IMG/VR virus record: IMGVR_UViG_3300010293_000027
Coordinates: 1 to 30,790 of that record
DNA from: a virus
DNA length: 30,790 nt
Reading direction: 5' to 3' (one strand)
Part shown: piece by piece, positions 3,036-30,790 of the stretch
Numbering within the stretch: position 1 is the stretch's first letter
How the letters are laid out: every line of letters begins with the position of its first letter
Translations under genes and position numbers: made by a program
Notes under the pieces: generated by a model
What the model was told of the DNA's origin: nothing
The model's database searches: none
The model's input: only the letters and a program-made list of their open reading frames with translations

Positions 3036-3089
3036 AGTTGTCCAGTAGTTATCACACCGGGGGTTTTACTGACACATTAAGTTTTTCGT

Positions 3090-3207: not shown

Positions 3208-3217
3208 TGAGTTGGTC

Positions 3218-3994: not shown

Positions 3995-4057
3995 GTTCCA
4001 CAGAGGATCACGCGTATCTATCTATGGAATAGAAAGATTAGAGAGGAATACTAAACT

Positions 4058-4888
4058 GTGCCCAACGTACTATTCACCTGCCCAGGTCAAATAGGCGACG
4101 ATCTATTTCGATTTCCTATTGCATATCAGTATGCGAAACAACGCAGTATAAAAATCGATATTGCTCTGTGGGAAGGTTCCAAAACCCTGTTAAGTCTGCT
4201 AACCGATGAGCCGTGGGTAGATAACGTATTTACTTCTCCAGGGATTACAGGCCTTCCGCTTGGTGGACAGCCGTGGGATTTTGGGAGAGACGCTGAGTGG
4301 CGAACACAGTATACGCACGTATACCATCTTGGATACAGGCGGTACCCATACCCAAGAATTAATAACACACTGGAGTGTTTAGAGACTTCTGAAACCCCTA
4401 TAAATATTGATAGTCTTCTTACTGAGCCATGCCTGACAAAACATACGCATAAATCAACTAAGAATTTAGCAGTGCATTTTGATGCTAGTTGTGAGATGCG
4501 TAATAGCACAAGTTTTCAAACTGTTGCCCCACTATTTGATAATCTCAGGGATATGTTTACTACCTGCTTTTTACTTGGTATCAGATTTGACCGCCCACAG
4601 TATACTGCTATAATAGCGCGGTATGGTAATTGGGTTGTTCCTATATCGGATAGTGGCGATTGGAACGTTACAGCTAAGGTACTTGAAGAGTGCGTTTTAG
4701 TAGGTACCTATGGTAGTATGTGGGCGCTAATGAACTGCATGAAAGGGCCACAAGTCGTAATAATGGATACTGATTTTATACGAGACAAGGGAAATAAAAT
4801 CTCCTTCCCAGAAGTAGAAAGGCTGGTAGTTGTCGGTGATTCTACCGGTGTTTTAAATAATACTATTGAGTTGGTGAATCGTGGATAA
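4058..4888 (+). CDS. Glycosyltransferase-like protein (GT9/heptosyltransferase-like, uncertain)
   Basis: The 276-residue product begins NVLFTCPGQIGDDLFRFPIA, which resembles the glycine-rich first loop (GxxGD) of GT-B enzymes such as the LPS heptosyltransferases of family GT9. The C-terminal half has strands and a GTYGSMWALMNCM segment where GT9 proteins bind the sugar nucleotide. The match is to general fold features only. The start is a GTG at 4058 with GAGAGG about 11 bases upstream, and no ATG precedes the conserved strand. It lies between two other glycosyltransferase-like genes and overlaps the next start by 8 bases. It could instead be a non-enzymatic GT-B relative. Confidence 0.55.
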   Translation: MPNVLFTCPGQIGDDLFRFPIAYQYAKQRSIKIDIALWEGSKTLLSLLTDEPWVDNVFTSPGITGLPLGGQPWDFGRDAEWRTQYTHVYHLGYRRYPYPRINNTLECLETSETPINIDSLLTEPCLTKHTHKSTKNLAVHFDASCEMRNSTSFQTVAPLFDNLRDMFTTCFLLGIRFDRPQYTAIIARYGNWVVPISDSGDWNVTAKVLEECVLVGTYGSMWALMNCMKGPQVVIMDTDFIRDKGNKISFPEVERLVVVGDSTGVLNNTIELVNRG

Positions 4889-5540
4889 TACAATAATCCT
4901 ATCTCAGTGGTACAGAGAGTCAGAGTTGTATACGTGGGGGTACAGAGAAGTTTTCTGCCCGTTATGGAGGCACGCACTGGAACTATGCGCTCCAGGTATT
5001 CCTATATTGGTTTGTGATAATGGTGGTGAGGTACGCCAACCTCATAGAGGTGTTGAAGTAGTGAACCTTGTTAATCCGTTACCACATGGGCGCGGTACTG
5101 AGGGCCATTACAGTAACTGTTGGAAAGCAATAAGGCAGCTAATAAACATAGCAATAAACCGTAACTTTGAAGTTGGTGTGTTTGTAGGGCAGAATAATCT
5201 TGTAGGGGTCCCATTTATTGATGCGGTTACTGCTGGATTAAACACTGCTGATATACTTTGTAGTACCGGTTGGTCTACCGCTAATGGGTGCCATACTGAG
5301 ATAATGGCATTTAATCTGAAAAGGTGCGCCGGATTACTAAAGAAGGAATATGCATTTCCACTAGAGGTATCTATGACAGGGTGGGCAGGAGAGTTAGGTC
5401 TTGTTATCGCTGAGTGCGCCGAACTGTATCACAAGTGCAACTGGCCTAATTTAGATATTGATACCGTAACCTGCGGAAGAAGCCCACTATCGTATCAAGT
5501 ACAGTTTGCAGAAAGGCACGGATTACTTAGAGATGAATAA
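4881..5540 (+). CDS. Putative glycosyltransferase, family not recognised
   Basis: The protein has 219 residues with a GT-A-like feel. It opens with a strand (TIILSQWYRESE), then a PILVCDNGGE segment near residue 41, much like the strand-plus-acidic loop at the start of nucleotide-sugar-binding domains. A GVFVGQNNLVGVPFIDA segment follows, and then TEIMAFNLK. No DxD motif is evident, so catalysis is unproven. The start is GTG at 4881, overlapping the preceding stop by 8 bases. No signal peptide or membrane helix is seen. The role is inferred mainly from position between a glycosyltransferase-like gene and a sugar methyltransferase. Confidence 0.5.
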   Translation: MDNTIILSQWYRESELYTWGYREVFCPLWRHALELCAPGIPILVCDNGGEVRQPHRGVEVVNLVNPLPHGRGTEGHYSNCWKAIRQLINIAINRNFEVGVFVGQNNLVGVPFIDAVTAGLNTADILCSTGWSTANGCHTEIMAFNLKRCAGLLKKEYAFPLEVSMTGWAGELGLVIAECAELYHKCNWPNLDIDTVTCGRSPLSYQVQFAERHGLLRDE

Positions 5541-6744
5541 CAAATGCAGGTTAGATAATACTGAGCTTATCCCGGTAGTAGATATGGGTAATCTCTTTGT
5601 TTCAGATTTTGTAGATAGGGTTGGTGCTGGTGAACAATTTCCAGTTATGCTTGGAAGATGTCCAGCGTGTGGACTTACACAATTAGCAGACAGCTACTCC
5701 CCAGAAAAGATGTACCGCCACTACTGGTACCGTTCCGGTACTAATGAGCAAATGCGACAGGATTTACAAGACGTTGTAGAATCCGCTGAGAAGTGGGTGA
5801 CACTGAACCCACGAGATTATGTATTGGATATCGGCGCTAATGACGGAACAATGCTCAGCTTCTTTCCAAGAGATGTCGTTAAAGTTGGCATAGATCCATC
5901 GCAACTCATAGTAGAAGAGGCACCTAAGAATGTACCGGAGCCAAATGTACTGATCAGAAACTTCTTTAGTAAGTATTCTGTACCAGATACCGAGTATAAG
6001 GTAATTACCTCTATAGCAATGTTCTATGATATAGAATCTCCGCTAAAGTTTACTGAAGATATTTATGATATTTTGAGCGATGATGGGGTGTGGATTGTAC
6101 AACTATCATACACCCCGCTAATGGTAAAACAAAATGCCTGGGATAATCTTGGCCACGAGCATATTATGTACTATACACTTAGCTCTATTATCAAAGCAAT
6201 TGATAATAGGTTCAGACTTGTAGACGTAGAGCTTAATAACGTCAACTGCGGATCGTTTAGACTATACTTTACAAAGAACCGACCGAATGTACCTGGACAT
6301 GAGTTAGTACTTGGTAATTTACGCATAGACTCCCTTGCCGCGTATGAGATGAATAACCAGTATGAGAATGGCTTGATTTATGATAACTACTTTGCTGGTA
6401 ATGTTAAACAGTCCAGAGAAGAGCTGGTACAGTTCTTATCCCAGAATGCTGGTAAAGTTTACGGATTAGGTGCATCTACTAAAGGCAATACTCTTCTGCA
6501 GTATTGTGGAGTAACCCCCGAAATTATGCCAGCAATTGCTGATAGACAACCACAAAAACACGGGCTATTAACAGCCGGTACGTGGATTCCAATTATAAGT
6601 GAAGAAGAGCTTAGAAAGATTAAACCCGAATACGCTCTAATTCTTCCGTGGACATTTTCAAACAATATTATAGCAAGAGAGAAGGAACTCAGGAGTACCG
6701 GTACAAAGTTCGTGGTACCACTACCAAAGCTGCATATTTTGTAA
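5533..6744 (+). CDS. Sugar C-methyltransferase (SAM-dependent, TylC3-like)
   Basis: This 403-residue protein has the three-part layout of NDP-hexose C-methyltransferases. There is an N-terminal zinc-type region (Cys5, then RCPACGLTQL with Cys43 and Cys46), a class I SAM-binding domain with VLDIGANDG at 97-105, and a C-terminal domain beginning VYGLGASTKGNTLLQY, a family hallmark. The enzymes put a methyl group on a ring carbon of a keto-deoxy sugar nucleotide, so it could act on a product of the dehydratase upstream. The usual first CxxC is CRLD here, so one of four zinc cysteines is replaced by Asp8. The ATG at 5533 overlaps the previous stop; another in-frame ATG at 5506 would start before the Cys motif by nine residues. 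Confidence 0.82.
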   Translation: MNNKCRLDNTELIPVVDMGNLFVSDFVDRVGAGEQFPVMLGRCPACGLTQLADSYSPEKMYRHYWYRSGTNEQMRQDLQDVVESAEKWVTLNPRDYVLDIGANDGTMLSFFPRDVVKVGIDPSQLIVEEAPKNVPEPNVLIRNFFSKYSVPDTEYKVITSIAMFYDIESPLKFTEDIYDILSDDGVWIVQLSYTPLMVKQNAWDNLGHEHIMYYTLSSIIKAIDNRFRLVDVELNNVNCGSFRLYFTKNRPNVPGHELVLGNLRIDSLAAYEMNNQYENGLIYDNYFAGNVKQSREELVQFLSQNAGKVYGLGASTKGNTLLQYCGVTPEIMPAIADRQPQKHGLLTAGTWIPIISEEELRKIKPEYALILPWTFSNNIIAREKELRSTGTKFVVPLPKLHIL

Positions 6745-7589: not shown

Positions 7590-10190
7590 ATGCGAACTCA
7601 ATATGTTCCGCCAGACTCGCAGGCAGATTTAAGACATCTCGCCCGCCCGTTTTCGGTACATGCCACCGGACTGAATAGAAATCAAACAGGAGTAGCCATT
7701 GCATCTGCTATCAATTCCTCGATAGACAGTCTATCTATTCCTGTAAGTGGTTTCTATGAGTTTAATGTCAAAACTTATGGCGCTTCTGGCGATGGTGTAA
7801 CAGATGATACGGTTGCACTTCAGCACACATTTGACGTTATGGTCGCTTCCGGGGAGCGAAACATATTACGCATACCCCCAGGAATTTATAAGTTTACCCA
7901 ACCATTAGTTTGGGTTACTAACAGTACGCCGTTTAATATACTAGCAGAAGGGTCTATTTTATACTATTGCGCGGATGATCCGGTTACTGCTGTAACTATT
8001 GGCGCCACTGGTGCAGTTATTGATAGATGTTTCTTTGTGGGGCTGGATGTTTATAAAGAAACCCGAAACTGGAGCGTTGCTTCATCGGGTGTAGAGTTTG
8101 TTAACATCTTTGCCTGCCAGGTCCAGGACTTTTCAGTCACCAGTTTCAAGTCGGGATTTATACTTAACGGGTATAATAAAGGTAACACATACAATAGATT
8201 TACGTTGAACCGTATACGCGGTAATCAGTATGGTTTGTCCCTTAAACGATCTGGCGCTGGTGGGTATGTTACCCAGCAACTATTCATTGGCGGGTCGTGG
8301 AATAGCGGAACAGTAGAGATAGCCACATACGATCACTACGGGCATGTCTGGTTTCCAGAAGCCAGTTCTGCTTACGGAACTTTTCACTTTGATTACTGTG
8401 CCTTTGAGGGTGGGTTTGATTACTACAGCGTGGCAACTACTGGTTATGCGTTTAATGTAAATGTAAACAACGTCATCTTTAACCAGTGCAGATTCGAGTT
8501 TGTCATAGGTAGTGGTGCGCACTACCCTGCATACGGGATACTTGGTTCTTCCAGTTCTTTTTGTACCGTCCATCATGTGCATTCTACCAGCAACATAATC
8601 TTTCATAACGCTGGAACATATAACCAGATATGGTATGCCGATAGGATGAATACGGTAGAAATATCCTCCGGTATATTCAGACCTATTACTAATGGAAGAA
8701 TCGGGTTCAACACATACAACGCAGTCAACTATGGACTGCATGTTATGTATGATGCGTACAAAACTGAAGCGGAGATAGGTAGTAGTGGCATTATGCAGGT
8801 GGGCGAGTTAAGTGCTACACTTGCTTCTACTGCACTTTCAGTCTACACCGGAACTGGTACTGGCTTGTACGTGGGAACGTTTACCGGTACACCAATCTCC
8901 TCCACCGTAACTAACCTGTCTCCCAACAGTCACAACACAGTACTCACAGTAGCCCACGCACTATCTGGTGGAATGAACCCAACCGCCGGTTCTTTTGGTT
9001 CTGCTATCTCGTTTAGAAGCGCATTACAGGATACTGCAAGTCTCGGGGCTATGGGACTTATCTACTGTACTTCTGATGATGTGACCCTGGAAAACAAGCG
9101 CGGTAGATTCAGATTTATTACCTATGGCGGCAGCGGTACATTCACTTCTCTTCAACTCGGTAACACCGGATTTGAAGGGGAGTCTACTCTAGGATTCTTC
9201 GGAAACACCCCGACCACCAAGCCTACAGTCTCTGGATACACCCTCGGAACGGGGGTATCTTCCCTGCTTTCAGGGCTGGAGGACCTTGGACTTCTTGTCG
9301 ATTCTACTGAAGATATGACTTATCTTTACCTTCTTTGGTCGGCTGCAACATCCGGAGATAGCCTCTACAAACTGCGCGTGGGTAGTAATAACGCCTTAAA
9401 CAGTCAGACTGCAGGTTTCTTTGAGTCCGGTAGTAGTTATGCCCTCTGGGCGCAAACCAGAACCGGTACCCCGATCTACGGATCAATACTTGGTTCCAGT
9501 GCTACTGCAGACCCTTCTGCTCTTATATTATCAAACCTTGGAAATGGGGTCATTACCCCTGCCGCCGGGTTTGGTACCAGCGTCGTATTTAATGCCGTAC
9601 TTACTGGTGGTGGTACTGGTAGACAATTCTTTATCAGAAACACCTGGGTCGACGCTAATACTGCTTCTTATAAAAGCCGCTGGAGAATGCACGCACACGA
9701 TGCGGCTTCTTCATCTACCGGTAGAGAGATATTAAGAGGAGAGGCCAGCGGAACCGCTGGTATGATAGGGTTCCTCGGATCTAATGCTTCGCCGACTATT
9801 GCAGTATCCGGGCATACCGGGGATGGAAGTTATCAGATAGCCCTTGGTAATGCTATTAAGACCTTCGGGTTAATAACCTCCACCATAGCATCCAGCGGCG
9901 AAAGTCACAGGTTTACTATAGCCTGTACTGCAGGTACTTCAGGGTTTGTAACTTTAAGTATTGGGAGTAGCGACGTAATCTTTGCTGATGGGTATGCTGA
10001 GATAACTCTTCCAGCCGCCGCCGGTTGCTCTGGTAAGACTTTTACAATAAAACGGCGCGGAACTGATTTAGTAGTAGCAATACCACCAGGTGCGGAAACA
10101 ATAGACGGGGCGGCAACAAAAGAACTAACTACTCAGTATGAACTTGTTAAAGTAATGAGCGACGGAACAAACTGGAACATAATAGGTTAA
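7590..10190 (+). CDS. Tail spike with pectate-lyase-fold (beta-helix) domain
   Basis: The 866-residue protein starts with a short virion-attachment-like region. It then shows VKTYGASGDGVTDDTVALQ at 60-78, the signature opening of the pectate lyase 3/glycoside hydrolase 55-type beta-helix in phage tail spikes, followed by beta-helix sequence to about residue 400. From about 410 to 790 two similar modules of roughly 196 residues occur in tandem: TGTGLYVGTFTGTPI matches YALWAQTRTGTPI, and STLGFFGN matches MIGFLGSN. The end (ETIDGA, then SDGTNWNIIG) is typical of phage fibre tips. Such spikes often bind or cleave host polysaccharide; catalytic residues were not located. GGGGGAAG precedes the ATG by ten bases. 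Confidence 0.8.
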   Translation: MRTQYVPPDSQADLRHLARPFSVHATGLNRNQTGVAIASAINSSIDSLSIPVSGFYEFNVKTYGASGDGVTDDTVALQHTFDVMVASGERNILRIPPGIYKFTQPLVWVTNSTPFNILAEGSILYYCADDPVTAVTIGATGAVIDRCFFVGLDVYKETRNWSVASSGVEFVNIFACQVQDFSVTSFKSGFILNGYNKGNTYNRFTLNRIRGNQYGLSLKRSGAGGYVTQQLFIGGSWNSGTVEIATYDHYGHVWFPEASSAYGTFHFDYCAFEGGFDYYSVATTGYAFNVNVNNVIFNQCRFEFVIGSGAHYPAYGILGSSSSFCTVHHVHSTSNIIFHNAGTYNQIWYADRMNTVEISSGIFRPITNGRIGFNTYNAVNYGLHVMYDAYKTEAEIGSSGIMQVGELSATLASTALSVYTGTGTGLYVGTFTGTPISSTVTNLSPNSHNTVLTVAHALSGGMNPTAGSFGSAISFRSALQDTASLGAMGLIYCTSDDVTLENKRGRFRFITYGGSGTFTSLQLGNTGFEGESTLGFFGNTPTTKPTVSGYTLGTGVSSLLSGLEDLGLLVDSTEDMTYLYLLWSAATSGDSLYKLRVGSNNALNSQTAGFFESGSSYALWAQTRTGTPIYGSILGSSATADPSALILSNLGNGVITPAAGFGTSVVFNAVLTGGGTGRQFFIRNTWVDANTASYKSRWRMHAHDAASSSTGREILRGEASGTAGMIGFLGSNASPTIAVSGHTGDGSYQIALGNAIKTFGLITSTIASSGESHRFTIACTAGTSGFVTLSIGSSDVIFADGYAEITLPAAAGCSGKTFTIKRRGTDLVVAIPPGAETIDGAATKELTTQYELVKVMSDGTNWNIIG

Positions 10191-12861: not shown

Positions 12862-14511
12862 ATGCTAGACATAGACAACCTTACCCCTGAGGATATGCTG
12901 GAAATATCCAAAATCCTCGGACTAAAAAATCTGGATGTAGAAGACGTATCTGAGATTATAGATATACTTAGCAGCCCGCTGAGGTGGGCTGAAGCGTTTC
13001 TACATGACCCCAATACCGATAAACTGTTTAAGGCGAACTATGTCGAGCAGCAAATCCTGACTGCGAAAGGACCGTGGGTAGTTATTCGTGTACCCCGGCG
13101 GCAAGGTAAAAGTTACTCTCTATCTGTTCTTTGTCTCTGGGCAATGGCGGTCCATAGTAATTACACCATTCTAATTCTGGCCCCAGAAGAAGGACATGTT
13201 GCTGAGTTCTTTGATTACATCCGAAACTTTTTGAGTGTAAATCCCGAACTAGCCTGCGAGATTAAAGAGAATACAAAAAGTCCTCATAGGATAAAGTTTA
13301 AGAACAACTCTGTTATCAAAGGTAAAACTACCGGCGCAGCATCAAGCCGTAATACCAGCGGTATTCGTGGTAAGGGTGGGGACTTAATCATATTAGACGA
13401 GGCTGCGTATCTCAAAGATAGTGACTTCGGACAGATTCTTCCTATTGTAACCAACGACATTTATAAAGATGAAGTCCTAATTTATGCCGCGTCCACGCCA
13501 ACTGCCGATCATAATCGCTACTATACCTGGTGTACGGCACCAGATTCCCAGTGGGAACAGATACATATTCCTATTACTGAGATACCAGAGATAACCCCCG
13601 AGCGCCTTGCTATGATTAAGTCCCTCCATACTGAAATGGAGTGGATAGTAGAAGACCTTGCAGAGTTTCCGGACATTGGGGATAATGTATTTCGTAATAG
13701 TGATATTGATAAAGCAAAGGGTCGTTATACTTATTCATTGGATGGGCTCGCGGATTCTACTAAAAAGATTATAGGAGTAGACTGGGATAAGCATAGTTGC
13801 GGAGTTACTATTGCGCTGGTAGAGGCTATTCCAGGAACTAATAATGTAAGACTAATCTACCGAGAAGAGATTCCGCGCGGGCAGTATACTCTTACAAACG
13901 CGGTTAATAGAATAATCGGATTGAATGAACTTGTTAAACCCGATTTTATATATGTCGATAGGGGGTATGGGGAAGCACAGATTGAGTTGTTGAAGTTGTA
14001 TGGAAAAGAAAATCCGAGTTCAAAGTTACATGAAAAGGTAATAGGTATCCAATTTGGACAGGATGTTTCTATACAGGATCCCATAACCGGTAAAGAGATT
14101 AAGAAACAGTTCAAGTCGGTTATGATTAACACCATCTCAAGAATGTTAGAAGATGGGTTGTTCCAGTTCAGCGACAAGGATAGTAGGTTTGATAAGCAAT
14201 TACGCGGGTATAAAATCGTAGGACTATCCTCAGACAGGATACAAACCACCCGTAAGAATGAGCATATCATAGACGCCGTTGGGCTGGCACTATATGGAAT
14301 GCATACCCACTTCTATGATAGGCTAAAGTTTAAACCAGCAACTAAAGTTGTAATCAGGCCCCAGCCTATACCAGTAAAATCAAAGCGGGCTAAAGAGGAA
14401 GATAAGAGATTATTCTCTTCAAAGAACTCTGTGTTTGTTGATAGAATGTTCACTAAAGGATTACAAAGGGGTACATTGATGCACAAAGTACCGGGTCGGT
14501 CAAGGTTTTAA
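12862..14511 (+). CDS. terL: Terminase large subunit
   Basis: This 549-residue protein is the packaging motor and nuclease. Its ATPase domain has a variant Walker A at 79-84 (RRQGKS, after VIRVP) and Walker B LIILDEA with Asp179 and catalytic Glu180. The RNase H-like nuclease domain shows three acidic residues in order: Asp307 in IGVDWD, Asp366 in YVDRGYG, and Asp471 in IIDAVGLALYG. All key motifs of the family are present and the length is normal. No clear ribosome site is seen; the ATG is 4 bases after the holin-like stop, suggesting coupling. Portal and head genes follow downstream. Confidence 0.93.
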   Translation: MLDIDNLTPEDMLEISKILGLKNLDVEDVSEIIDILSSPLRWAEAFLHDPNTDKLFKANYVEQQILTAKGPWVVIRVPRRQGKSYSLSVLCLWAMAVHSNYTILILAPEEGHVAEFFDYIRNFLSVNPELACEIKENTKSPHRIKFKNNSVIKGKTTGAASSRNTSGIRGKGGDLIILDEAAYLKDSDFGQILPIVTNDIYKDEVLIYAASTPTADHNRYYTWCTAPDSQWEQIHIPITEIPEITPERLAMIKSLHTEMEWIVEDLAEFPDIGDNVFRNSDIDKAKGRYTYSLDGLADSTKKIIGVDWDKHSCGVTIALVEAIPGTNNVRLIYREEIPRGQYTLTNAVNRIIGLNELVKPDFIYVDRGYGEAQIELLKLYGKENPSSKLHEKVIGIQFGQDVSIQDPITGKEIKKQFKSVMINTISRMLEDGLFQFSDKDSRFDKQLRGYKIVGLSSDRIQTTRKNEHIIDAVGLALYGMHTHFYDRLKFKPATKVVIRPQPIPVKSKRAKEEDKRLFSSKNSVFVDRMFTKGLQRGTLMHKVPGRSRF

Positions 14512-15737: not shown

Positions 15738-16211
15738 ATGGTTGATCATCGGCAACCGGGGAAATGTCCAGTGTTAAAGCGATTGATGATATATCTTTCG
15801 GACATAGTACACCTGAAACTTTTGGGCGGCTCAAAAATAAAAAAAGAACATATCGACCGTACCCAAAAATTTATTCTTAAAATAACAAAAATACTGCCCC
15901 AAGACCACCCTTATGTGATTGAGGGGAAATGGAAATGGTGCATGACAAATGATGGAATAATGCCATCCCTTACGCTCGTCTACCCTCAGTTAGGCTTCGT
16001 TTGCGTATATTGGGGTCCAGAAGTTGGGGATTGGAAAACTTCCAGACAATTCTGCAAAAATAAATCTGCCTGGGAGTTAGCAAATAGAATTGCATCAACT
16101 GTAGAAGTTAAATGTAAAGAGTTCGGGTTTCACTATCTTAGTGTTAAATGGGGTGATCCGGTTGATGAGGAAAGCTTGAAATTAAAACTTTCTGAGTTAT
16201 TAGATACATGA
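15738..16211 (+). CDS. Hypothetical protein, 157 residues, upstream of portal
   Basis: The product is a small alpha/beta-type protein with a Lys-rich first part (GSKIKKEHIDRTQKFILKIT) and a Trp/Cys-containing middle (GKWKWCMTNDGIMP, then VCVYWGPEVGDWK). It starts two bases after the preceding stop and its end overlaps the portal ATG as ATGA. The first half of the DNA is unusually A-rich compared with its neighbours, which may hint at later acquisition. No known domain is seen. Confidence 0.6.
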   Translation: MVDHRQPGKCPVLKRLMIYLSDIVHLKLLGGSKIKKEHIDRTQKFILKITKILPQDHPYVIEGKWKWCMTNDGIMPSLTLVYPQLGFVCVYWGPEVGDWKTSRQFCKNKSAWELANRIASTVEVKCKEFGFHYLSVKWGDPVDEESLKLKLSELLDT

Positions 16212-17998
16212 TAATCCATAAGGATGAGGTAACACCACAAACCGGAATATCCCTTCCGTATAGTTCGCACAATAGGCTTCGGCGCGCGTTGGACCTTGGG
16301 CGCGTCATCAACCCTATTATAAAAGACCTTGCCAGAAAGTACGACACACCAAGTAGAGCCTTAAAGTCCATACCTTTTGATATAAATAGCGTCCAGGTTG
16401 GGTATCTAACCGACGGCCATATCCACCAAGGCGTAGATAAGTACGTAGAACTTTTACTTAAAGAAGGTTGGAGACTGGTAGGAAGAGACGATCCTGTTGA
16501 ATATCTTACAAAGCGGTTCAAACTCATGGGATATATGTCAGACCCATCTGAACCCTGGGAACTGGTAGTAACTAACATAGTTCGCGACTTTGTAAAATAT
16601 GGAAACAGTTTCCTGGTTCTTCGCCGATCACCATATCTTCAAAAAGCTACAAACGGTAAGATAGTCGGGTTGAATGGTAAACCTCCAATCGGCGCGTACT
16701 TCCCTCTGCCAGTTTCCCAGCTCAGTCCTGACTCCGATAAAGATGGAAACGTTCGGAGCTGGAGACAAAAGGCAAACGGTAAAGAGAAGACGTTTAACGC
16801 CGGGGATGTTTTACACTTCACCTATTGCAGAGAGCCCAGTGAAGTCTGGGGAACCCCATTCCTCCTTCCTGTTATTGAGGATGTCAGGGCCCTTCGTCAA
16901 ATCGAAGAGAGTATCCTGAAGCTAATCTACAAACACCTGAACCCACTTATCCATCAGGAAGTCCCAGATGTTACTGGAACCGGTGAAGGTAGACAGGAAG
17001 ATATTGATGACGCCGCGAATGCACTGACTACTATGGCAGTTGATGGGTATATCATTACCCCACCTGGCCATAAGATAAATGTAATAGGAGCGGAGAGTCA
17101 GGCAATCCGTGCGGAAGGGTATGTAAAACTTTTCAAGCAGCGTATATTCTCAGGACTGGGAATGTCCGCGCTGGCAATGGGTGAAGCAGAAAGTGCGGCA
17201 ATAGGAACAGCTGAAAGCCTTACTTTGCAGATGCACAACAAAGCGCGCATTTTTCACTACCTTCTTTCCCAGTATATTACCCACTACATAATTAATGAAC
17301 TGCTTATGGAAGGTGGATATAATCCTGTACTGAATGAAGAAGATGCAGTAATCTTCACCTGGAATGAGATAGAAATAGACCGCCGAATAAAGGAACAGAC
17401 TCACTACTTGAATATGTGGTCAATGAACGGAATCGGCGCGGAAGAGTTTAGAAAACTAGCACGGCTTCCAATAGGCGCACCAAGTTGGGAAGATTATTAT
17501 GTACACCAGGTACAGATCCCACAGGTAGTTGCCGCGAAACATGGGGTTGACCCAATACTGATACCTGATGCTGACTTAAAGAAAGTATTTGATAATAACC
17601 TCGCGATCGCTACAAAAGATAAACCAAAGAAAGATAGTATCGCAGGTCAGGGCGGGGATGCCTCGCCACCAAGTAACCAGCACACGCCGAAGACTGGCGG
17701 TAAGAAGACGCAAAGCCTCACTCGTGATGTTGATTATTTTACAGAGACCTGTGAAAAAGTACTTTTACTGGTTCCGTCTGTATTTGAAGACAGGCTAACA
17801 GTAGCAGATATTTCCAATACACTTAGAGTACTTATTCCTGAGTATATGGCTACACCGCTGGCTAATACCCTGTATAACGATATAAAGGAAAGCCAGGATT
17901 GTAATGAGGCCATTGCAAAAGTAAACGCCAGATTAGCCAACGAGAGAGTAGTCATTCTTGCCTTGCTGGAAGGAGATAGAAATGACAGCCTTTCGTAA
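16208..17998 (+). CDS. Portal protein
   Basis: This 596-residue protein has the sequence pattern of phage portals, the dodecameric ring at the head vertex through which DNA passes and which docks terminase. Recognisable parts are the crown-to-wing region VVTNIVRDFVKYGNSFLVLR, the DVLHFTYCREP segment before a long helix with VIEDVRALRQIEESIL, and the stem helix region with QRIFSGLGMSALAMGEAESA. The last ~110 residues after a Lys/Pro-rich linker (DKPKKDSIAG) form an extra helical tail. Position directly downstream of the terminase block and upstream of the protease supports it. The ATG overlaps the previous stop. Confidence 0.9.
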   Translation: MIIHKDEVTPQTGISLPYSSHNRLRRALDLGRVINPIIKDLARKYDTPSRALKSIPFDINSVQVGYLTDGHIHQGVDKYVELLLKEGWRLVGRDDPVEYLTKRFKLMGYMSDPSEPWELVVTNIVRDFVKYGNSFLVLRRSPYLQKATNGKIVGLNGKPPIGAYFPLPVSQLSPDSDKDGNVRSWRQKANGKEKTFNAGDVLHFTYCREPSEVWGTPFLLPVIEDVRALRQIEESILKLIYKHLNPLIHQEVPDVTGTGEGRQEDIDDAANALTTMAVDGYIITPPGHKINVIGAESQAIRAEGYVKLFKQRIFSGLGMSALAMGEAESAAIGTAESLTLQMHNKARIFHYLLSQYITHYIINELLMEGGYNPVLNEEDAVIFTWNEIEIDRRIKEQTHYLNMWSMNGIGAEEFRKLARLPIGAPSWEDYYVHQVQIPQVVAAKHGVDPILIPDADLKKVFDNNLAIATKDKPKKDSIAGQGGDASPPSNQHTPKTGGKKTQSLTRDVDYFTETCEKVLLLVPSVFEDRLTVADISNTLRVLIPEYMATPLANTLYNDIKESQDCNEAIAKVNARLANERVVILALLEGDRNDSLS

Positions 17999-21000: not shown

Positions 21001-22251
21001 ATGCCGTACATTGGATCACAGGTTTCAGCTACCGAGCGGTGGAATCCAGGCGTCGTAGTTTCAGAGGGCGTTGGCGAACCGTTCGAAGAATGGGAAGTTT
21101 ATGATCTTCTTCCTGCGCTGGGGAACGACCCTCGGCGTACTTCAGACCTTATCGTAATCCCTGCTGGAAGGCTTATTGGTATCTATCCTGATAGCGTTTC
21201 GGTTACAACTCGCGCCAAGCTAACCCTTGCTGATGGTGTGACTGTTAAGCCCAGCGGTTTTGCGCGGACTAACTTCTACCAGAAGGCACCTAATAAGGCT
21301 CAGTGGGCTCCGTTACTGTCCCGCGCTTGTGTTATTGAGGTTCCTTACGTTGCCGCAGTTAACGCTGCCTACGGCGCTCTAGCTGGTGGTATGCCTGTTA
21401 CTGCTTATTTTGGCGACACAGACTCTACTGTTCAGACTCCTAATGACGTTGGTAAGATTGTAAAGTGGATCGGTAAGACTGTATACCATAAGAACCAGAG
21501 TGCTAATGTTGCTTGTACGCTAACCTCTGCTGCACTTCCTGCCTTTACCCCGGTTATTCTTATGGCATGGAACGCCGGTACTGTACTCGCCTCCGGCGCT
21601 AGCTGCACTCCAGCCTGGGATACTGGTACCGATACCTGGATCGCGACTTTTGGCAACCAGGTTACGGATGTTCTCTATACTTATGGTCAGGGTCCAGAAA
21701 TGATTGCTGGTGAAGTAATTCGCATTGAGCCTATTACTACATCTCATGAACTCAGCGGCTGGTTGAAGTGGGTTACTGTGGATATGAGCGATCCTATGAC
21801 CGCTTCAATGATTACTCGTGTACCTGTTACATCCGTATCCACGGAAACTCCGGCTGCTGTTTCTACTGGCGTATATCGGCTTGCTTACTACCCGGTTGCT
21901 GCATGGAAACCCATCACTGTTACAGTTACCGGCTCGCTTGTTGGTAGGGATGGTACCGTAACTACACTGACTTCTACTGAGATGTCTGCCGCGTCTCTAC
22001 CATACACAGACTATACCCGTGGTGCATGGTATACCATTGACTCACTTACTGGCTATCTGAGGTTCCCGAGTAACGTTACTGTTTCCTCAGTTACCGTTAG
22101 TTACTACTACGAGACTTCGTATCGCCAGGGTAAAGCGTGGGGTCAGGGTATTCCTGGTCTTACCGACGGTCAGTATACTGGCGTTCCTGGAACACCTGGC
22201 AGTCTGGAAGTTTCCGGCTGCGTCGGTTCTCTAAGGTGCCTTATCTATTAA
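21001..22251 (+). CDS. Probable head decoration / structural protein
   Basis: The 416-residue protein is rich in Ser, Thr, Val and Gly with few charges, typical of beta-structured virion proteins. It begins MPYIGSQVSATERWNPGVVV and contains Thr/Val-rich strands throughout (VTSVSTETPAAVSTGVY, then VTVSSVTVSYYYETSY). It sits between the protease/scaffold and the major capsid gene, where many phages encode a decoration or stabilising protein. GAAGGGAG precedes the ATG and a GC-rich hairpin follows the stop. No named domain is recognised. Confidence 0.6.
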   Translation: MPYIGSQVSATERWNPGVVVSEGVGEPFEEWEVYDLLPALGNDPRRTSDLIVIPAGRLIGIYPDSVSVTTRAKLTLADGVTVKPSGFARTNFYQKAPNKAQWAPLLSRACVIEVPYVAAVNAAYGALAGGMPVTAYFGDTDSTVQTPNDVGKIVKWIGKTVYHKNQSANVACTLTSAALPAFTPVILMAWNAGTVLASGASCTPAWDTGTDTWIATFGNQVTDVLYTYGQGPEMIAGEVIRIEPITTSHELSGWLKWVTVDMSDPMTASMITRVPVTSVSTETPAAVSTGVYRLAYYPVAAWKPITVTVTGSLVGRDGTVTTLTSTEMSAASLPYTDYTRGAWYTIDSLTGYLRFPSNVTVSSVTVSYYYETSYRQGKAWGQGIPGLTDGQYTGVPGTPGSLEVSGCVGSLRCLIY

Positions 22252-22319: not shown

Positions 22320-23483
22320 ATGTCAACACCATTCAGTGAAGTCTACTCAAAGTACCAGGAGAGTGCCCAGGCGGAAATCCTGAAAGGCTTCGATACTACA
22401 CCAGAAGCGTTCGCAAAGAATGTAGCTATTCTCGAAGCTTTAATGAGCCGCAATGCTCCGATCTATGGACCACGGCTGGCTATGTCTGAAGCGTTAATGT
22501 CTGCCGACGCCAGCATTCTCTTCCCCCGCGTGTTTAGCGATGTTCTACTTCGCCCACGCGAGCCCCTTATGATAGGACAGTCGCTCCTATCGCGTACGAT
22601 TAATGTCGATGTACCAATATTCCAGTTCCCTGCTATGGGCGCTTTGCGAGCTTTCGATGTTTCTGAAGGTGGGAAGTACAAGGAACAATACGCAAGCTTC
22701 ACCGAAAACCATACGGAAATCAAGGTCGGTAAGACCGGTCTGATTGTCGGAGTTACTGATGAAGTAGTTCAGGATAGTATGTGGGATATCCTTGCCCTGT
22801 ATGTCGAAGCCGCTGGTTTTGCAATGATGAGGCTTAAGGAAGAGAAGATCTTTACAGAGTTCTCGACCTATGGTCACGTAGTATTCGACAACAACCTGGA
22901 ATCTACTGCTTCGTGGACTGGTGGTAAGGCGTATGCCCAAACCCGCAACTTCACCGTTACCTTCGACGATCTGATTGATACCATGGGTACCCTTGTTGCT
23001 CATGAGTATATTCCTACCGATATCGTAGTTCATGCTATGTCCTGGCCGATAATTGCAAAGGATCCTGTTCTTCGCAATATTGCCTACCACCAGGGTGCGC
23101 TTGGTCAGGGTGGTTGGACAGCCGTTCCTAACTTCAACCAGCAGATGAACCTGCCATGGGCTATCAACTACCAGATCTCCCCGTTCATTCCTTACAATGC
23201 CAGTAATACACTGACTTCAAGCCAGGCTTCCGGTCTTACTGCCTGCGGTATTACTGATATGTATATCCTTGACCGAAACAATGCTTGTCTCGTTCTTCAG
23301 CGCACACCAATGGGTGTTGAAGATTTCCGCGATCCGTCGCGCGATATCCAGAACATGAAGGTTAACGAGCGGTACGGCGTTGGTGTTCTTAATGCTGGTA
23401 AGGGTATCTGTGTTATCAAGAATGTCCGTGTTGATCAGAACTGGGCTCCACATCAGGTCATTGCTTCTGTCACACCTTCCTAA
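22320..23483 (+). CDS. Major capsid protein (HK97 fold)
   Basis: The 387-residue protein fits an HK97-type major head protein in size, position and composition. After a helical N-terminal region of about 50 residues comes SILFPRVFSDVLLRPREP. Then follow MGALRAFDVSEGGKYKEQ and a spine-helix-like stretch VTDEVVQDSMWDILALYVEA. The C-terminal half shows alternating strands with EHEYIPTD-like loops, typical of the A domain, and ends CVIKNVRVDQNWAPH. It would form the icosahedral shell after scaffold-directed assembly and proteolysis. Hairpins lie on both sides of the gene, and the strong AGGAG leader fits high expression. Confidence 0.85.
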   Translation: MSTPFSEVYSKYQESAQAEILKGFDTTPEAFAKNVAILEALMSRNAPIYGPRLAMSEALMSADASILFPRVFSDVLLRPREPLMIGQSLLSRTINVDVPIFQFPAMGALRAFDVSEGGKYKEQYASFTENHTEIKVGKTGLIVGVTDEVVQDSMWDILALYVEAAGFAMMRLKEEKIFTEFSTYGHVVFDNNLESTASWTGGKAYAQTRNFTVTFDDLIDTMGTLVAHEYIPTDIVVHAMSWPIIAKDPVLRNIAYHQGALGQGGWTAVPNFNQQMNLPWAINYQISPFIPYNASNTLTSSQASGLTACGITDMYILDRNNACLVLQRTPMGVEDFRDPSRDIQNMKVNERYGVGVLNAGKGICVIKNVRVDQNWAPHQVIASVTPS

Positions 23484-25079: not shown

Positions 25080-25664
25080 ATGACAGATCCGTTCAGGCTG
25101 ACCACTACTTCCGGATCAGACAGATTCGGCCTCGTATCACGTCGCAAGATGCGATCCGGGTTTAACGACTTAATAAACGACCATCCACACTTCTTAATTT
25201 ATGTGCGGAGGAACTTAAAATATCCGCATGGAGATTGTTTTCTAAGCGACACTAAATCACCAAGTCCAGATTGTAGCACCTGTTTTGGTACTGGTTACAA
25301 AGTCCAGTATGAGAAGCATAAATGCAGACGAGTATTAAACGCTAAAAGTACTCAAGAACAACTTATGGACCCTGGGTATATGTCAAAGTACCAGGTGATA
25401 ATCTATACCCCAAGGTACTACTACCCAAGAGCAGGAGACTTATATCTCGAAGTAGAGTGGGATGTTAGTATCCCCTACATCGAAAGTATAGGGAGGCCGG
25501 TTAACGTTATAAAAGTTCACAGAGTGGACGATGCTGTAGCGATGATGGAAGATGAGGTAACTTATTTTGCGGTTGGTGCAATACCATATAACTTTGACGG
25601 TAAGAACCTGGAGAACTGGTTACTAACTGTTCAAAGAACCTGGACGGAGAAGGTAGTAAATTGA
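25080..25664 (+). CDS. Probable neck / head-closure protein with zinc-type cysteines
   Basis: The 194-residue protein has Cys53, Cys65 and Cys68 in a DCSTCFGTGY box plus Cys82, a probable zinc site seen in several phage neck proteins. A beta-rich part follows (QVIIYTPRYYYPRAGDLYLE, then VNVIKVHRVDD). It starts two bases after the previous stop and its end overlaps the TTG of the sheath-like gene. Position between the adaptor-like protein and tail genes supports a stopper or joining role. Confidence 0.6.
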   Translation: MTDPFRLTTTSGSDRFGLVSRRKMRSGFNDLINDHPHFLIYVRRNLKYPHGDCFLSDTKSPSPDCSTCFGTGYKVQYEKHKCRRVLNAKSTQEQLMDPGYMSKYQVIIYTPRYYYPRAGDLYLEVEWDVSIPYIESIGRPVNVIKVHRVDDAVAMMEDEVTYFAVGAIPYNFDGKNLENWLLTVQRTWTEKVVN

Positions 25665-27091
25665 AGTTTGCTGATGTACTCTTAATAGGATTGGCTGATG
25701 ATGGCCCCGCAGGGGTTGCAGTACAGCCAGAATCCTGGCAAGAAGCACAGGAAATCTTTGGGTGGTGGACCCAGGAGATACACACTATTTCTGCCTCTGG
25801 TACGTCCACAGTACTCCAAAATATAGCAAACTCCAATGAGTGGTATATCTACCAGGTATTGAATAATAGACTATACTCAAATCCGCTATATCTTCCAAGC
25901 CTTGACTCAGTTACCTTCAGTTTTGGCAGCCCAGGAACAAGCGGAACATATGCTTTTAGATATGTACGAGAACATCCTGAAAATTCATTACTACCTGGAC
26001 TGAATGCTTTTCTTAAAACTGGGGCGCCGATGCCCCTTGTTTGGAGATTATCTGGCGTAAAAGCCTCTGCCCAGATAGGTGGTATATCCTTTACTGCAAA
26101 GTATTGTGGAACGAGATATAATGATATCTCTATATCTTATGACGGCGCTACTTTAACAGTAACTACTCCCCACGCTGCAAAGCACGCAACTGTTAGTTAT
26201 ACCGTAACAACAACTTCTGACTTTGTAGCGAAGTTCAATCATGAATCCGGACGTGGTAAACATGCAGTAGAAGTTAGTATGCCACCGTCCAATACTTTTG
26301 ATTTACCAGTAGGGACGTGGGCATTAACCGGTGGAACTGACGCTTCGTTTACTGAGGAAAGTATACTCGCTGCTCTTAGTAATATAGATCTCAGTGGAGT
26401 AGGGTTAGTCGTATTGTGTGGTGGTGCAACTTCTGGGATAGTATCCTCTGCTGTCTCTTACGTAGAGAGTCAGACTAACTCTACGTGCATCGTGGTGGGG
26501 TCGCCGGTGGAGTATAAGGCTTGGGATCAGGGTGTTTACGAGTCATACTTAAACGCTTTACCGTTTACATCCAACCAACTTATATACACGGCTGGGTGGG
26601 GAAGACAGATAGCACAGGATTCAGACTATCTATACTGGACCTCTCTTGCTCCAGTTTTTGCCGGTGTGTTCGATCTTTATTCAACACCGCCTACGCACAA
26701 ACCAACGGGATTAATAGATACATCTCCGACATGGACCGCCGCCCAGTTATCAAATCTTGGAAGTAAGTATGCAGTAGCGACCAGGTTTATCCAAACTGGT
26801 ATAGGGTTCTTCAGGTCCTACCCAACGGGCGGAAGAAGTGCTGTAGCAGTTAAAGTATTACATGATATAGTAAGTAGATTATGGAGCGCACTTGATAGGT
26901 ATATCGGGGAGCCTTCTATAGATATCAAAACTGCGGAGGGAATAGTAGGGGACGCGCTGGAAGGTATAGAAAATGTAAGAGAGCTATCTTATGAATGCTA
27001 TCTCAGCGAGTATACACTAACAGTAAAAATTACTGTTCTGGTGGTCGGTGAAGTCCAAACTATATCCTTTGATGTAGTAACAAACAAGTAA
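25661..27091 (+). CDS. Tail sheath-like protein (paralogue of the main sheath)
   Basis: This 476-residue protein aligns by eye with the main sheath encoded at 28041. LLIGLADDGPAGVAVQ followed by EAQEIFG matches LLIIGNALDGPVNTPI followed by EAEAVFG. Next, GLNAFLKTGAPMPLVWRLSG matches GLYEALIGGAGNVVLVRSGG, and LTGGTDASFTEE matches FAGGTNGTEAPQ. The C-terminus (DIVSRLWSALDRYIGEPS) matches the sheath's C-terminal helix-strand unit. The start is TTG at 25661 in a TTGA overlap, with GGAGAAGG upstream. It may form a distinct collar or end ring rather than the main contractile tube. Confidence 0.72.
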   Translation: MKFADVLLIGLADDGPAGVAVQPESWQEAQEIFGWWTQEIHTISASGTSTVLQNIANSNEWYIYQVLNNRLYSNPLYLPSLDSVTFSFGSPGTSGTYAFRYVREHPENSLLPGLNAFLKTGAPMPLVWRLSGVKASAQIGGISFTAKYCGTRYNDISISYDGATLTVTTPHAAKHATVSYTVTTTSDFVAKFNHESGRGKHAVEVSMPPSNTFDLPVGTWALTGGTDASFTEESILAALSNIDLSGVGLVVLCGGATSGIVSSAVSYVESQTNSTCIVVGSPVEYKAWDQGVYESYLNALPFTSNQLIYTAGWGRQIAQDSDYLYWTSLAPVFAGVFDLYSTPPTHKPTGLIDTSPTWTAAQLSNLGSKYAVATRFIQTGIGFFRSYPTGGRSAVAVKVLHDIVSRLWSALDRYIGEPSIDIKTAEGIVGDALEGIENVRELSYECYLSEYTLTVKITVLVVGEVQTISFDVVTNK

Positions 27092-27113
27092 ATAATACTC
27101 GGTATACAAATAA

Positions 27114-28004
27114 ATGAAAACCCAGGCAGAGAGACACTTTGATCCAAAATACCATAGCCCTATTAGCGTATATACTGTACCCTTATTGATCTGGGATGTA
27201 CTGGAAAATTCGTGGGGCCCAAAAAGAGTAGAGTTTACTCAGGCATTCCCAACTGAAAAAATGATCGGCGGGCCCAGAATAGTCTGGAAAGTATATAGAA
27301 GAATACCAGGAAGAGAGGGACTTGAAACCCTTAAACCCAGAGCCAGAACAGCCACTAGAAGTGCTGCTAATCCTGATGCTTATATTGATGTCTGGGGGCA
27401 GTGGCATACCGTAATCTACCAGTTCGATATATTCGCAACTGATAATAATACGGCTAATGACCTGGTAGTACAGTTTGAAGACCTTATGTTCCAGATAACC
27501 TCCACACTAAAATCGGCTGGGGTTATAGACTGGTTTTTTGATGAACAACTAATAGATACTGAAACACAGGCCACCTTTTCTCAGCAACTCTGCCGAAGGA
27601 CACTGCGATATCGTTGCATTCTAGATAAGAGATATACAAGGCAACTACCATCCTTCAAGAGTATCTGGATACGCCCGATTGCGGGGGATATCTTAGTTAC
27701 AAACGAAGAGGTTACCAGATCTACTGTTGCAGGGCAAACATATGATGCTTTAGCCAACTCGTGGGTAAGTTCAATCCTCGCGGTGGATATAGTTCCCGTA
27801 ACCAGTACGGCCAGCAGCGGATGTTACTTTGAGAATGTTGACTTTGTGTTTGAGGTAGATTTAACACTCGGCGAAGGTAGAATCTCGTGGATTTCAGGCG
27901 CCAAACACCCACAACCAACTGAGAAGTATTATGTAACGTACACCTATTCTGATGAATCAACTTCGGTTGAGGTGGCTGACCCGCCAAGGTCCGCAACTTC
28001 TTGA
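27114..28004 (+). CDS. Probable tail terminator / completion protein
   Basis: The 296-residue product has a core reading GQWHTVIYQFDIFATDNNTA, then LVVQFEDLMFQI and later RTLRYRCILDKRY. That order of a strand pair, helix and closing strands is seen in phage tail terminators that cap the tube and meet the head. The N-terminal part (PRIVWKVYRRIPGREG) and a separate beta-rich C-terminal part of about 100 residues extend it beyond the usual length. It sits between the two sheath-type genes. No clear ribosome site precedes the ATG. The assignment is moderate. Confidence 0.5.
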   Translation: MKTQAERHFDPKYHSPISVYTVPLLIWDVLENSWGPKRVEFTQAFPTEKMIGGPRIVWKVYRRIPGREGLETLKPRARTATRSAANPDAYIDVWGQWHTVIYQFDIFATDNNTANDLVVQFEDLMFQITSTLKSAGVIDWFFDEQLIDTETQATFSQQLCRRTLRYRCILDKRYTRQLPSFKSIWIRPIAGDILVTNEEVTRSTVAGQTYDALANSWVSSILAVDIVPVTSTASSGCYFENVDFVFEVDLTLGEGRISWISGAKHPQPTEKYYVTYTYSDESTSVEVADPPRSATS

Positions 28005-28012
28005 CCCAGTTC

Positions 28013-28026
28013 GCGCCACTAGGCGC
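28013..28026 (+). promoter_or_regulatory. Short GC hairpin before the sheath ribosome site
   Basis: GCGCC (28013-28017) and GGCGC (28022-28026) form a 5 bp stem over ACTA, two bases before the AGGAG (28029-28033) of the sheath gene. It is short but repeats the hairpin-then-AGGAG arrangement of the capsid and tube genes. Confidence 0.35.
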
Positions 28027-28040
28027 ACAGGAGAACAACA

Positions 28041-29738
28041 ATGGCAAACCAGCAACTCCCAGGTTTCAGGACAACTATTCGTGACGGTGGTTTAGTTGCA
28101 ATAACCCCTGAACCAACGACAGAACGTCTGCTTATCATAGGTAACGCTCTAGATGGTCCCGTAAACACCCCTATCCGCATTCGGAGTCTTACTGAAGCAG
28201 AGGCTGTTTTCGGCCCACTAACCTACACCAAGGGATATGTAGATCCTGTTTCCACTACGGAGAGTGGGAAGTGGGCATATAACTCACTTGTTAATGGTCT
28301 GTATGAAGCACTAATCGGAGGCGCAGGCAACGTTGTCCTGGTACGCTCCGGTGGTACTCTGGCGACGGCTACCCAAACAGCATCAGGGAATGTGGCGCTC
28401 ACCCTAACCGCTATAGCCCCAGGTAGGATTTATAATGGTGTTGTAGTAGGAGTTACCAGGGCGTCCACTAACACGACTGTAACTATAGGTCAACCTGCAG
28501 TTAAAGGTGGTATAATAGGATTGACAGTATCTGATACTTCCACTACTCTGCAAGAACTGTGCGACCTGTTAAACTCTGACTCCCGCAACCGTACTGTTAT
28601 CTTCAGTGTAGGTGCTGTCTCAGGTTCGCTCTATACCTCAGTACTTACTGCTTCAGCAAGTGGTACATTCGCAGGTGGTACCAACGGAACAGAAGCCCCG
28701 CAGGAAGATTACTACTCAAGCAAGGTTGGCTACTACACCAAACTTACGGAATCTAATGGTACGTTTGATAACCTGGTAGATAGAGAGTTTAATGTCTGCT
28801 TACTAACTGGAATCTGGGCGGACGATCAGGTGGCCTCAAATACAACTACTACTATAGCCCAGGCTTTTGCGGAATTCTTACACAAGACTACGTACGAAAC
28901 TCTACCATGTCACGGTGTTCTTGGTCTACGTCCAATCGGAAAGAGTACACCCACTGAACTGAAGGCGTATGCAGACGGTTCTCTACTCGCTACTGCTTCA
29001 GGCTACTACGGTAATGAAGTTGAGCGCCGAATAAAGTTCGGGTACTTTATGAGCACCGGATTTACTTATGTTGATGCAAACTCCGGTCAGAATGTGGACA
29101 TTGGTCGATATATCTCAGTAGTTGCTGGACCGGATGTTGTGCTGTCAAGCAAAGAGCGCGGCAGGTACTACACAAACGGTGCGGCTGTATACGCAGGTAT
29201 GATTACTAACCTACCATCTCATCGGGCCACTTCTAACAAACCTCTTGGTTCTACTGGTTCACTGCTTGGCAACTTCCCGAAGGCAACACTTGAACAACTC
29301 GTTCAGGGTGTAGGGTACGATGAGTCAACCAATGCTGCGGGTGGTGGTGGATACGTAGTAATACGTACTAATCCTCTCCGTGGTCTTCCTATAGTCATTC
29401 AGGATAACACCTGCGCTCTGCGGACCAGCGATTATAAAACCCTGCAGATATTCCGTATCGTTAACCTCGCTGTGTCGATGGTAAAGGATGTTCTTTATCC
29501 GTATCTTGGCGAGTCGTCCTCGGTCGAAGCTCTGATGGCAATGCAGACGCAGGTTAGATCTGAACTGAGTAAACTGTCAGAAGCCGGTGCATTACTTGGC
29601 GATGATAAGGTTGGCTATGACTTTGCAATTACATCGGACCAGATAGATAGTACCTTCACTAAAGTAACTGTAACTCTGAAGCTGCGACCTGCACTACAGA
29701 TTAAGTACATTCTAGTTGATGTGTCCGTCAGCTACTAA
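28041..29738 (+). CDS. Tail sheath protein
   Basis: The 565-residue protein is the contractile sheath that marks this phage as myovirus-like. The N-terminus has GFRTTIRDGGLVAITPEPTT followed by the ring-forming strand LLIIGNALDGPVNTPIRI and EAEAVFG. A central domain with Gly/Thr-rich strands follows. The C-terminal domain has GGGGYVVIRTNPLRGLPI, then TLQIFRIVNLAVSMVKDVLY and a final strand TLKLRPALQIKYILVDVSV, the conserved end of sheath proteins that joins neighbouring subunits. CAGGAG lies seven bases before the ATG. A GC-rich hairpin follows the stop. Confidence 0.9.
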   Translation: MANQQLPGFRTTIRDGGLVAITPEPTTERLLIIGNALDGPVNTPIRIRSLTEAEAVFGPLTYTKGYVDPVSTTESGKWAYNSLVNGLYEALIGGAGNVVLVRSGGTLATATQTASGNVALTLTAIAPGRIYNGVVVGVTRASTNTTVTIGQPAVKGGIIGLTVSDTSTTLQELCDLLNSDSRNRTVIFSVGAVSGSLYTSVLTASASGTFAGGTNGTEAPQEDYYSSKVGYYTKLTESNGTFDNLVDREFNVCLLTGIWADDQVASNTTTTIAQAFAEFLHKTTYETLPCHGVLGLRPIGKSTPTELKAYADGSLLATASGYYGNEVERRIKFGYFMSTGFTYVDANSGQNVDIGRYISVVAGPDVVLSSKERGRYYTNGAAVYAGMITNLPSHRATSNKPLGSTGSLLGNFPKATLEQLVQGVGYDESTNAAGGGGYVVIRTNPLRGLPIVIQDNTCALRTSDYKTLQIFRIVNLAVSMVKDVLYPYLGESSSVEALMAMQTQVRSELSKLSEAGALLGDDKVGYDFAITSDQIDSTFTKVTVTLKLRPALQIKYILVDVSVSY

Positions 29739-29795: not shown

Positions 29796-30497
29796 ATGTC
29801 TAATGTATTCGAACGATCAAAAGTAAAGGCCCTCGAAGAAACGACCGAAGAGTTCGCAGCGTATTCAGGTTGCGATATGGTTGTTTATATGGGGCATAGG
29901 CGAGTAGCTGCTATTCAGGGATTAACGGTATCCATTGTTCGCGAACTCGTTCCAGTGTACATAGCAGGAAGAGTCGGCCCCGCTAACTTCATAAAGGGTA
30001 AGCGTGCGATCTCTGGAAATATCGTATTCACCCAGTTCGACCGCCACGCTCTTCTAAAGGCCGCCCAAGCATTTCGTGATAAACGTAAAATAGAAGACTT
30101 GTGGGATGGTAAAGATTACATTGTTCCAGTAACAGTAGACGATGTATTTGGTAAGTCTTCAACTAATCCTAAACTTGCGGAAATTGGTAACGAATGGGTG
30201 GATAAGCTTAACGCCCAAATGAAGACCGTGAAAAACTTAGTAGGGGCTAGACCTCTTCGGTTTAGCGATCAGATTCCTCCGTTTGATATTACTGTAACCT
30301 TTGTCAGTGAAGACCAAGCTGTTTCTTCATTCGGATTGTTTGGTGTACGGTTAGGTAACGAAGCATACGGTTGGACGCTGGATGACGTGAACTCTGAAAT
30401 GGCCGCTACATATGTGGCTCTGGATATTCTTCCGCTTGATCGGCATGATAAGGATAATCCCAATACAGTCTTTGCCCTTCCTTCGTCAGTAACGTAA
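29796..30497 (+). CDS. Tail tube-like virion protein
   Basis: The 233-residue protein follows the sheath gene, the normal place for the tube. Residues 25-80 contain GCDMVVYMGHRRVAAIQGL, then PVYIAGRVGPANFIKGKRAI and SGNIVFTQFD. This pattern of paired strands with a GKRxIxGxIxF box is shared by phage tube-type structural proteins. The C-terminal part adds FDITVTFVSEDQA and a final strand VALDILPL. It probably forms the inner tube around which the sheath contracts. It is related to the truncated protein that follows. Confidence 0.68.
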   Translation: MSNVFERSKVKALEETTEEFAAYSGCDMVVYMGHRRVAAIQGLTVSIVRELVPVYIAGRVGPANFIKGKRAISGNIVFTQFDRHALLKAAQAFRDKRKIEDLWDGKDYIVPVTVDDVFGKSSTNPKLAEIGNEWVDKLNAQMKTVKNLVGARPLRFSDQIPPFDITVTFVSEDQAVSSFGLFGVRLGNEAYGWTLDDVNSEMAATYVALDILPLDRHDKDNPNTVFALPSSVT

Positions 30498-30515: not shown

Positions 30516-30790
30516 GTGTCTACCTTAAATAACGAGTTTCAATACAGCCGTGCCTGGGAAACAGAGGAAGTTTACACCTCCGCGAACGCTCCTCTGTTTC
30601 CTGAGGCCAGCTCAAAGGACCAGCAACTCGGCTCGCCTAAACTATTCTCAGCCGTAGATATGGTCGCATACGTAACCCTGCCTACCAAGAAGACATATAA
30701 ACTTGGTAACTTAGCTACGTTATCTATATCCTCCCACCGCGATAAGTTTCCAGTTACTGGTATGGGATCTATTAAGATACGCGGAACAAC
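30516..30790 (+). CDS. Second tube-like virion protein (cut by window end)
   Basis: A GTG at 30516, with GGGAT just upstream, opens a frame that runs off the window after about 91 codons. The visible end, FSAVDMVAYVTLPTKKTYKL followed by GNLATLSISSHRDKFPV and a GSIKIRG turn, aligns with residues 23-70 of the preceding tube-like protein. It is likely a paralogue with the same fold, perhaps a tube-end or baseplate-hub protein. Only the N-terminal part is available. Confidence 0.62.
   Translation, partial: MSTLNNEFQYSRAWETEEVYTSANAPLFPEASSKDQQLGSPKLFSAVDMVAYVTLPTKKTYKLGNLATLSISSHRDKFPVTGMGSIKIRGT

Follow-up and report, generated by a model that had tools for sequence, protein, structure and literature searches.

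The 30,790-base virus record IMGVR_UViG_3300010293_000027 (the whole stretch analysed, hereafter the window) is a fragment that ends inside its second tail-tube gene, and its right end is occupied by a head-to-tail structural module (Table 1). Within this module two genes, here termed SH1 and SH2, flank a terminator-like gene, and SH1 directly follows an adaptor-like gene with a 4-base overlap. The labels "adaptor" and "terminator" are given by position, and homology to a solved protein was confirmed for neither: the product of 27114-28004 reaches the tail terminator family phrog_78 at only E 0.18, and comparison with solved structures did not confirm its identity. A sequence-only reading had proposed that the 476-residue and 565-residue products of SH1 and SH2 are tail sheath paralogues and that the first could form a specialised terminal disc or collar. 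The first of these claims is borne out by profile matches, phylogeny and structural comparison. Profiles and a tree show SH1 and SH2 to be ancient paralogues with the tail-sheath fold, which for SH1 is backed by a low-confidence model.

Both open reading frames are present at the positions given there, and all motifs named in that reading were found in both proteins. "LLIGLADDGP" occupies residues 7-16 of SH1 and "LIIGNALDGP" residues ~31-40 of SH2, GLNAFLKTGAPMPLVWRLSG of SH1 is the counterpart of GLYEALIGGAGNVVLVRSGG of SH2, "LTGGTDAS" is the counterpart of "FAGGTNGT", and each protein ends in a helix-strand-strand-strand unit. Direct comparison by BLASTP gives a weak likeness (E 3e-4 over 32 residues); alignment of the two family profiles with hhalign covers 433 columns, the full length, at a probability of 99.9% and E 1.2e-36. 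By these sequence measures the likeness exceeds chance. SH2 matches the PHROG tail-sheath families phrog_16991 (E 1.7e-46) and phrog_279 (E 2.2e-15), and is 29.7% identical to the tail sheath of Moorella phage MTATph1 over 77%. SH1 matches phrog_279 at E 1.5e-10, with its relatives down to 1e-24, and PF17481 at only E 0.03, under the curated cut-off. Both family profiles match solved sheaths, and that of SH1 reaches the phi812 sheath (5li2) at E 7e-10.

The absence of a sheath fold from the first protein had been named as the outcome that would refute the reading. Structure prediction did not give that outcome: the AlphaFold2 model of SH1, at a mean predicted local distance difference test score (pLDDT) of 50, aligns to solved sheaths. 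Its 16 best Foldseek matches are sheaths or contractile-tail entries (best E 2.5e-10, with a template modelling score of only 0.34), as are the chains with the 15 highest VIA-align Z scores (13.8-10.0). The phi812 sheath aligns over 256 residues at 3.5 Å (Z 13.8), well over unrelated rows, and T4 gp18 and the P1 sheath follow at Z 12.1 and 11.1. The best-predicted part is the outer beta-sandwich domain (blocks 141-220, pLDDT 65-83). At the other end, SH1 as modelled retains a gp25-like C-terminal handshake domain with a free terminal strand; residues 388-475 align to T4 gp25 (5iw9) at Z 8.3 and to further entries of gp25 and its relatives at 7.8 (5iv5) and 7.3 (2ia7), against a background for this stretch in which pantothenate synthetases score up to Z 7.6.

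No relatives came from IMG/VR when SH1, SH2, the window capsid or MTATph1 SH2 was used alone as the query, and SH1 found no match by tblastn in a phage collection. An alignment of three capsids, from the window, MTATph1 and Bacillus phage vB_BauM_KLEB27-3 (KLEB27-3), retrieved 80 IMG/VR loci and 3 genome loci, and SH1 and SH2 are both present wherever a contig found in this way reaches far enough. The order adaptor-SH1-terminator-like-SH2-tube, with SH1 on the neck side, is identical in all 18 genomes that were ordered gene by gene with family hidden Markov models (the window, MTATph1, KLEB27-3, L009, L034, L036, L042, L052, L118-L125, L127 and L128), and three tubes come next in all of them whose DNA extends that far. 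The 11 loci L118-L128 are excerpts of larger records, and L126, apparently near-identical to L121, was excluded from the tree and the counts. A nineteenth locus, L029, ends after the terminator-like gene and agrees up to there, and L040, L050, L054 and L055, close copies of counted members, have the same order. Related circular elements of 200-240 kb occur in Bacillus and Paenibacillus and are held in PLSDB as non-mobilizable plasmids. On one of these, from B. licheniformis (L129), the order is the same and SH1 is open, annotated "hypothetical protein". The large circular elements that carry the tail module (L119, L129 and L130) look like phage-plasmids. Large phages and phage-plasmids of a broad group thus share this gene pair and its order. 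Among the plasmid-like members, SH2 reaches 922-974 aa (e.g., L118:5049-7817) and SH1, at 335-394 aa, is near a bare sheath core.

When 19 SH1 and 19 SH2 proteins are placed in one tree, a single branch splits the two families (support 96/96; 0 of 500 shuffles). Several SH1 rows, including that of the window, are long branches, and the order within SH1 is unsure. Pairwise identities of SH1 and SH2 over the 18 genomes are strongly correlated (r 0.93; 0 of 2000 permutations). Together, the single split and this co-divergence point to what seems to be one old duplication, kept and vertically inherited. SH1 is less conserved than SH2 in 153 of 153 genome pairs (mean identity 25% vs 36%), and the lengths of the two are often far apart (median about 375 vs 922 aa). 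Acinetobacter phage ME3, of the ME3/Bacillus phage 0305phi8-36 lineage, resembles the window in its capsid (24% identity), terminator-like gene, SH2-type sheath and three tube paralogues, but has one sheath gene only and no SH1 at that position; it either lost SH1 or branched off before the duplication.

The two families also differ at the N-terminus. An LPG-type start ([LIV][PS]G[VIF]) is found in 18/18 paired SH2 proteins (LPGF at residues 6-9 in the window) and in 0/19 SH1 proteins. SH2 proteins carry 29-38 residues ahead of the first core strand, whereas window SH1 carries 5, its core running from residue 6 as against residues ~20-36 in solved sheaths. Since model residues 1-5 align in VIA-align with residues 22-36 of solved sheath chains, window SH1 begins at the core start. 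SH1 starts for this comparison of lengths were picked by ribosome-binding site. SH1 proteins in general have lost the LPG start and are shorter at the N-terminus; lacking the arm altogether is particular to the window copy. The arm is not required to call the fold a sheath; it bears on function.

The short start of window SH1 is credible from its sequence context, because GGAGAAGG lies 7 nt 5' of the TTG, the TTG overlaps the preceding stop and no other common start is available. An upstream start that would restore the arm was rejected, as the 19 codons back to the stop hold no other ATG, GTG or TTG. Across the ordered genomes, the preceding stop is overlapped by SH1 in 13/18 and by SH2 in 3/18.

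What might a second, divergent sheath protein do? On balance we lean towards a division of labour in which SH2 would build the long contractile sheath and SH1 would form one or a few specialised rings, most probably nearest the head, where the SH2 stack would meet the neck. SH2 is taken as the main sheath because its family retains the customary N-terminal segment and matches sheaths more strongly. In XM1 and P1, each sheath subunit contributes an N-terminal strand that pairs with the C-terminal strand of the next subunit in the ring; together the two strands augment a C-terminal hairpin in the adjacent ring, which in XM1 is the lower one (PMC10457771, PMC10304247). Augmentation of this kind also lets the tail terminator cap the top ring, through its C-terminus only in XM1 and Milano (PMC10457771, PMC10491603), and through both termini in P1. 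Window SH1 has the gp25-like domain and no arm, so docking by the C-terminal strand is possible: it would dock on the SH2 ring below in the manner of the XM1 and Milano terminators, with its own hairpin pointing up to the terminator or neck. As the usual in-ring handshake is impossible for an armless protein, a terminal ring fits better than a long tube, and this mode of docking, combined with the position of the gene on the neck side, makes a neck-end ring likeliest. The disc or collar suggested earlier thus fits the gene position between adaptor-like and terminator-like genes, the faster evolution and altered N-terminus of SH1 and the ancient retention of both copies, and stands as a proposal.

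Several observations weigh against placing SH1 in a neck-end ring. The armless start is confined to window SH1: in the majority of the other SH1 proteins ~19-27 residues precede the core, as many as in certain single sheaths (T4 22, AFP 20), and these proteins may keep a short arm. Shine-Dalgarno strengths as predicted do not set SH1 significantly below SH2 (p 0.15), and therefore give no pointer to a low copy number; lower expression of SH1, tested by these energies, was unsupported. The models are weak, that of SH1 being of low confidence (predicted template modelling score 0.39, from 11 sequences) and that of SH2 (pLDDT 40, predicted template modelling score 0.30) too poor for superposition; the latter had no Foldseek match under E 0.001, its best weak matches being sheaths. 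On the B. velezensis element pAD3 (L130) the order is conserved, but SH1 is split between two frames. Finally, virion proteomics, micrographs, and copy-number or location data were not found for any member of the group, and the location of SH1 is for this reason inferred.

The split gene of pAD3 (L130:2935-4433) consists of overlapping frames of 283 and 240 aa beside an open SH2, and may be a broken gene, a sequencing error or a case of programmed frameshifting.

Two sheath-fold proteins in one phage are also known from PaBG (gp76 and gp213), whose virion proteome holds both (PMC7412058), and a mixed sheath over the whole tail has been proposed there. Co-assembly of SH1 and SH2 in this way, with which the retention of both genes in every paired genome agrees, is unlikely. 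The PaBG genes lie far apart (76 and 213), and their products are 38% identical, similar in size and the outcome of a late duplication within one group (PMC7412058). SH1 and SH2, in contrast, flank one gene, are separated by an old, deep split, differ at the N-terminus and often greatly in size, and SH1 evolves faster; they are not a recently duplicated pair of similar-sized sheaths. An armless SH1 could, moreover, not take part in the standard in-ring handshake (PMC10457771).

Extracellular contractile injection systems (eCIS) offer a second precedent, with several sheath and tube paralogues per operon, including three sheath paralogues in both PVC and AFP (Pvc2/3/4 and Afp2/3/4; PMC6748792, PMC8894135). 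Some of these paralogues are thought to form the first, baseplate-proximal ring, and Pvc3 is modelled with 6 chains in the baseplate entry 6j0n. The SH1 and SH2 profiles each reach Afp3 weakly, and the gp25-like domain is retained by SH1. A baseplate-proximal SH1 ring is improbable, somewhat more so than a mixed sheath. Against it stand the position of the gene, flanked by the adaptor-like and terminator-like genes on the neck side of a module that runs from head to tail, and the grip of a first ring on the gp25 platform, which should require both arms. The eCIS are also head-less particles, unlike the window, where the extra sheath gene is upstream of the main one and beside the neck genes of a complete phage module.

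It is improbable that the sheath fold of SH1 has been reused for a connector or collar outside the sheath, a neck ring that does not stack on SH2. The neck-like neighbors, the faster divergence and the ~130-aa N-terminal extension that replaces the arm in L052-type SH1 would suit such a role, but SH1 keeps the C-terminal handshake domain and its terminal strand. That SH1 is a redundant or decaying duplicate with no distinct role is very improbable, for although its fast divergence, the truncated start in the window and the split copy of pAD3 could be read as decay, SH1 is open in 18/18 ordered genomes, in the same place, and has co-diverged with SH2 since before the group split.

Two-sheath tails are therefore already known from PaBG and the eCIS; an ancient, group-wide and differentiated pair flanking a terminator-like gene is new as far as our searches show. 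MTATph1 and KLEB27-3 match the window gene for gene in this order, and each record annotates a pair of "tail sheath" genes; these proteins are only about 21-29% identical to those of the window; no paper on either phage was found in the literature searched. A 2022 survey of sheath evolution noted some genomes with two copies but analysed only a single one from each (PMC9230969), so that sheath pairs were overlooked. What holds a contracting sheath to the neck is not settled: in phage G it lets go there, and a missing upper anchor has been proposed (PMC8570332). A conserved sheath paralogue beside neck genes is a natural candidate for such an anchor, and one that can be tested in the isolated phages MTATph1 and KLEB27-3. 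More tentatively, a whole group of large contractile-tailed phages, including the plasmid-like elements of Bacillus and Paenibacillus, may build its tails with a dedicated second sheath protein, fixed before the group diversified, that forms the neck-end ring or rings and so keeps the sheath locked to the neck as it contracts.

Table 1. Features of the structural module and packaging genes in the window.
Feature	Position	Strand	Remarks
Terminase-like	12862-14511		phrog_2, E 1.4e-26
Portal	16208-17998		phrog_9232, E 2.5e-44
Major capsid	22320-23483		followed by an Ig-domain protein, then the adaptor-like gene
Adaptor-like neck gene	25080-25664	+	phrog_38102 "virion structural protein"; conserved Cys motif; positional label
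Shine-Dalgarno-like GGAGAAGG	25646-25653	+	7 nt 5' of SH1 TTG; duplex energy -9.0 kcal/mol
SH1, tail-sheath paralogue, short N-terminus	25661-27091	+	476 aa; TTG start
SH1 outer beta-sandwich domain (Phage_sheath_domII-like)	26054-26338	+	residues 132-226, to the GGT box; PF17481, E 0.03
SH1 gp25-like C-terminal handshake domain and terminal strand	26822-27088	+	residues 388-476
Terminator-like gene	27114-28004	+	296 aa; phrog_20284; identity inferred from position
SH2, main tail-sheath candidate	28041-29738	+	565 aa; ATG start; phrog_16991, E 1.7e-46
SH2 N-terminal segment 5' of core	28041-28127	+	residues 1-29, with conserved LPGF
Tail-tube paralogue 1	29796-30497	+	same family as the KLEB27-3 tail tube proteins, E 3e-52
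Tail-tube paralogue 2	30516-30788	+	cut by record end; family E 1e-12

Nearly all relatives (L002, L003, L009, L118 and others) have three tail-tube paralogues in succession after SH2. The phrog_9206 label "major head protein" on these paralogues looks like a misannotation. The terminator-like protein has an additional C-terminal DUF4815-like beta domain at residues ~189-287 (PF16075, E 1.6e-7, barely past the cut-off), which is absent from the MTATph1 and KLEB27-3 versions; by eye, similar domains are present in MTATph1 SH2 and in the product of window positions 21001-22251. Upstream of the packaging genes, sugar or glycan genes at 1986-6744 encode a C-methyltransferase (PF08484, E 8.4e-38), a protein resembling WavE (PF07507, E 2.7e-7) and a nucleotidyltransferase-HAD-like fusion (a weak assignment). 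The gene at 7590-10190, upstream of the terminase, encodes 866 aa that include a pectate-lyase-like segment and match tail-spike PHROG families.

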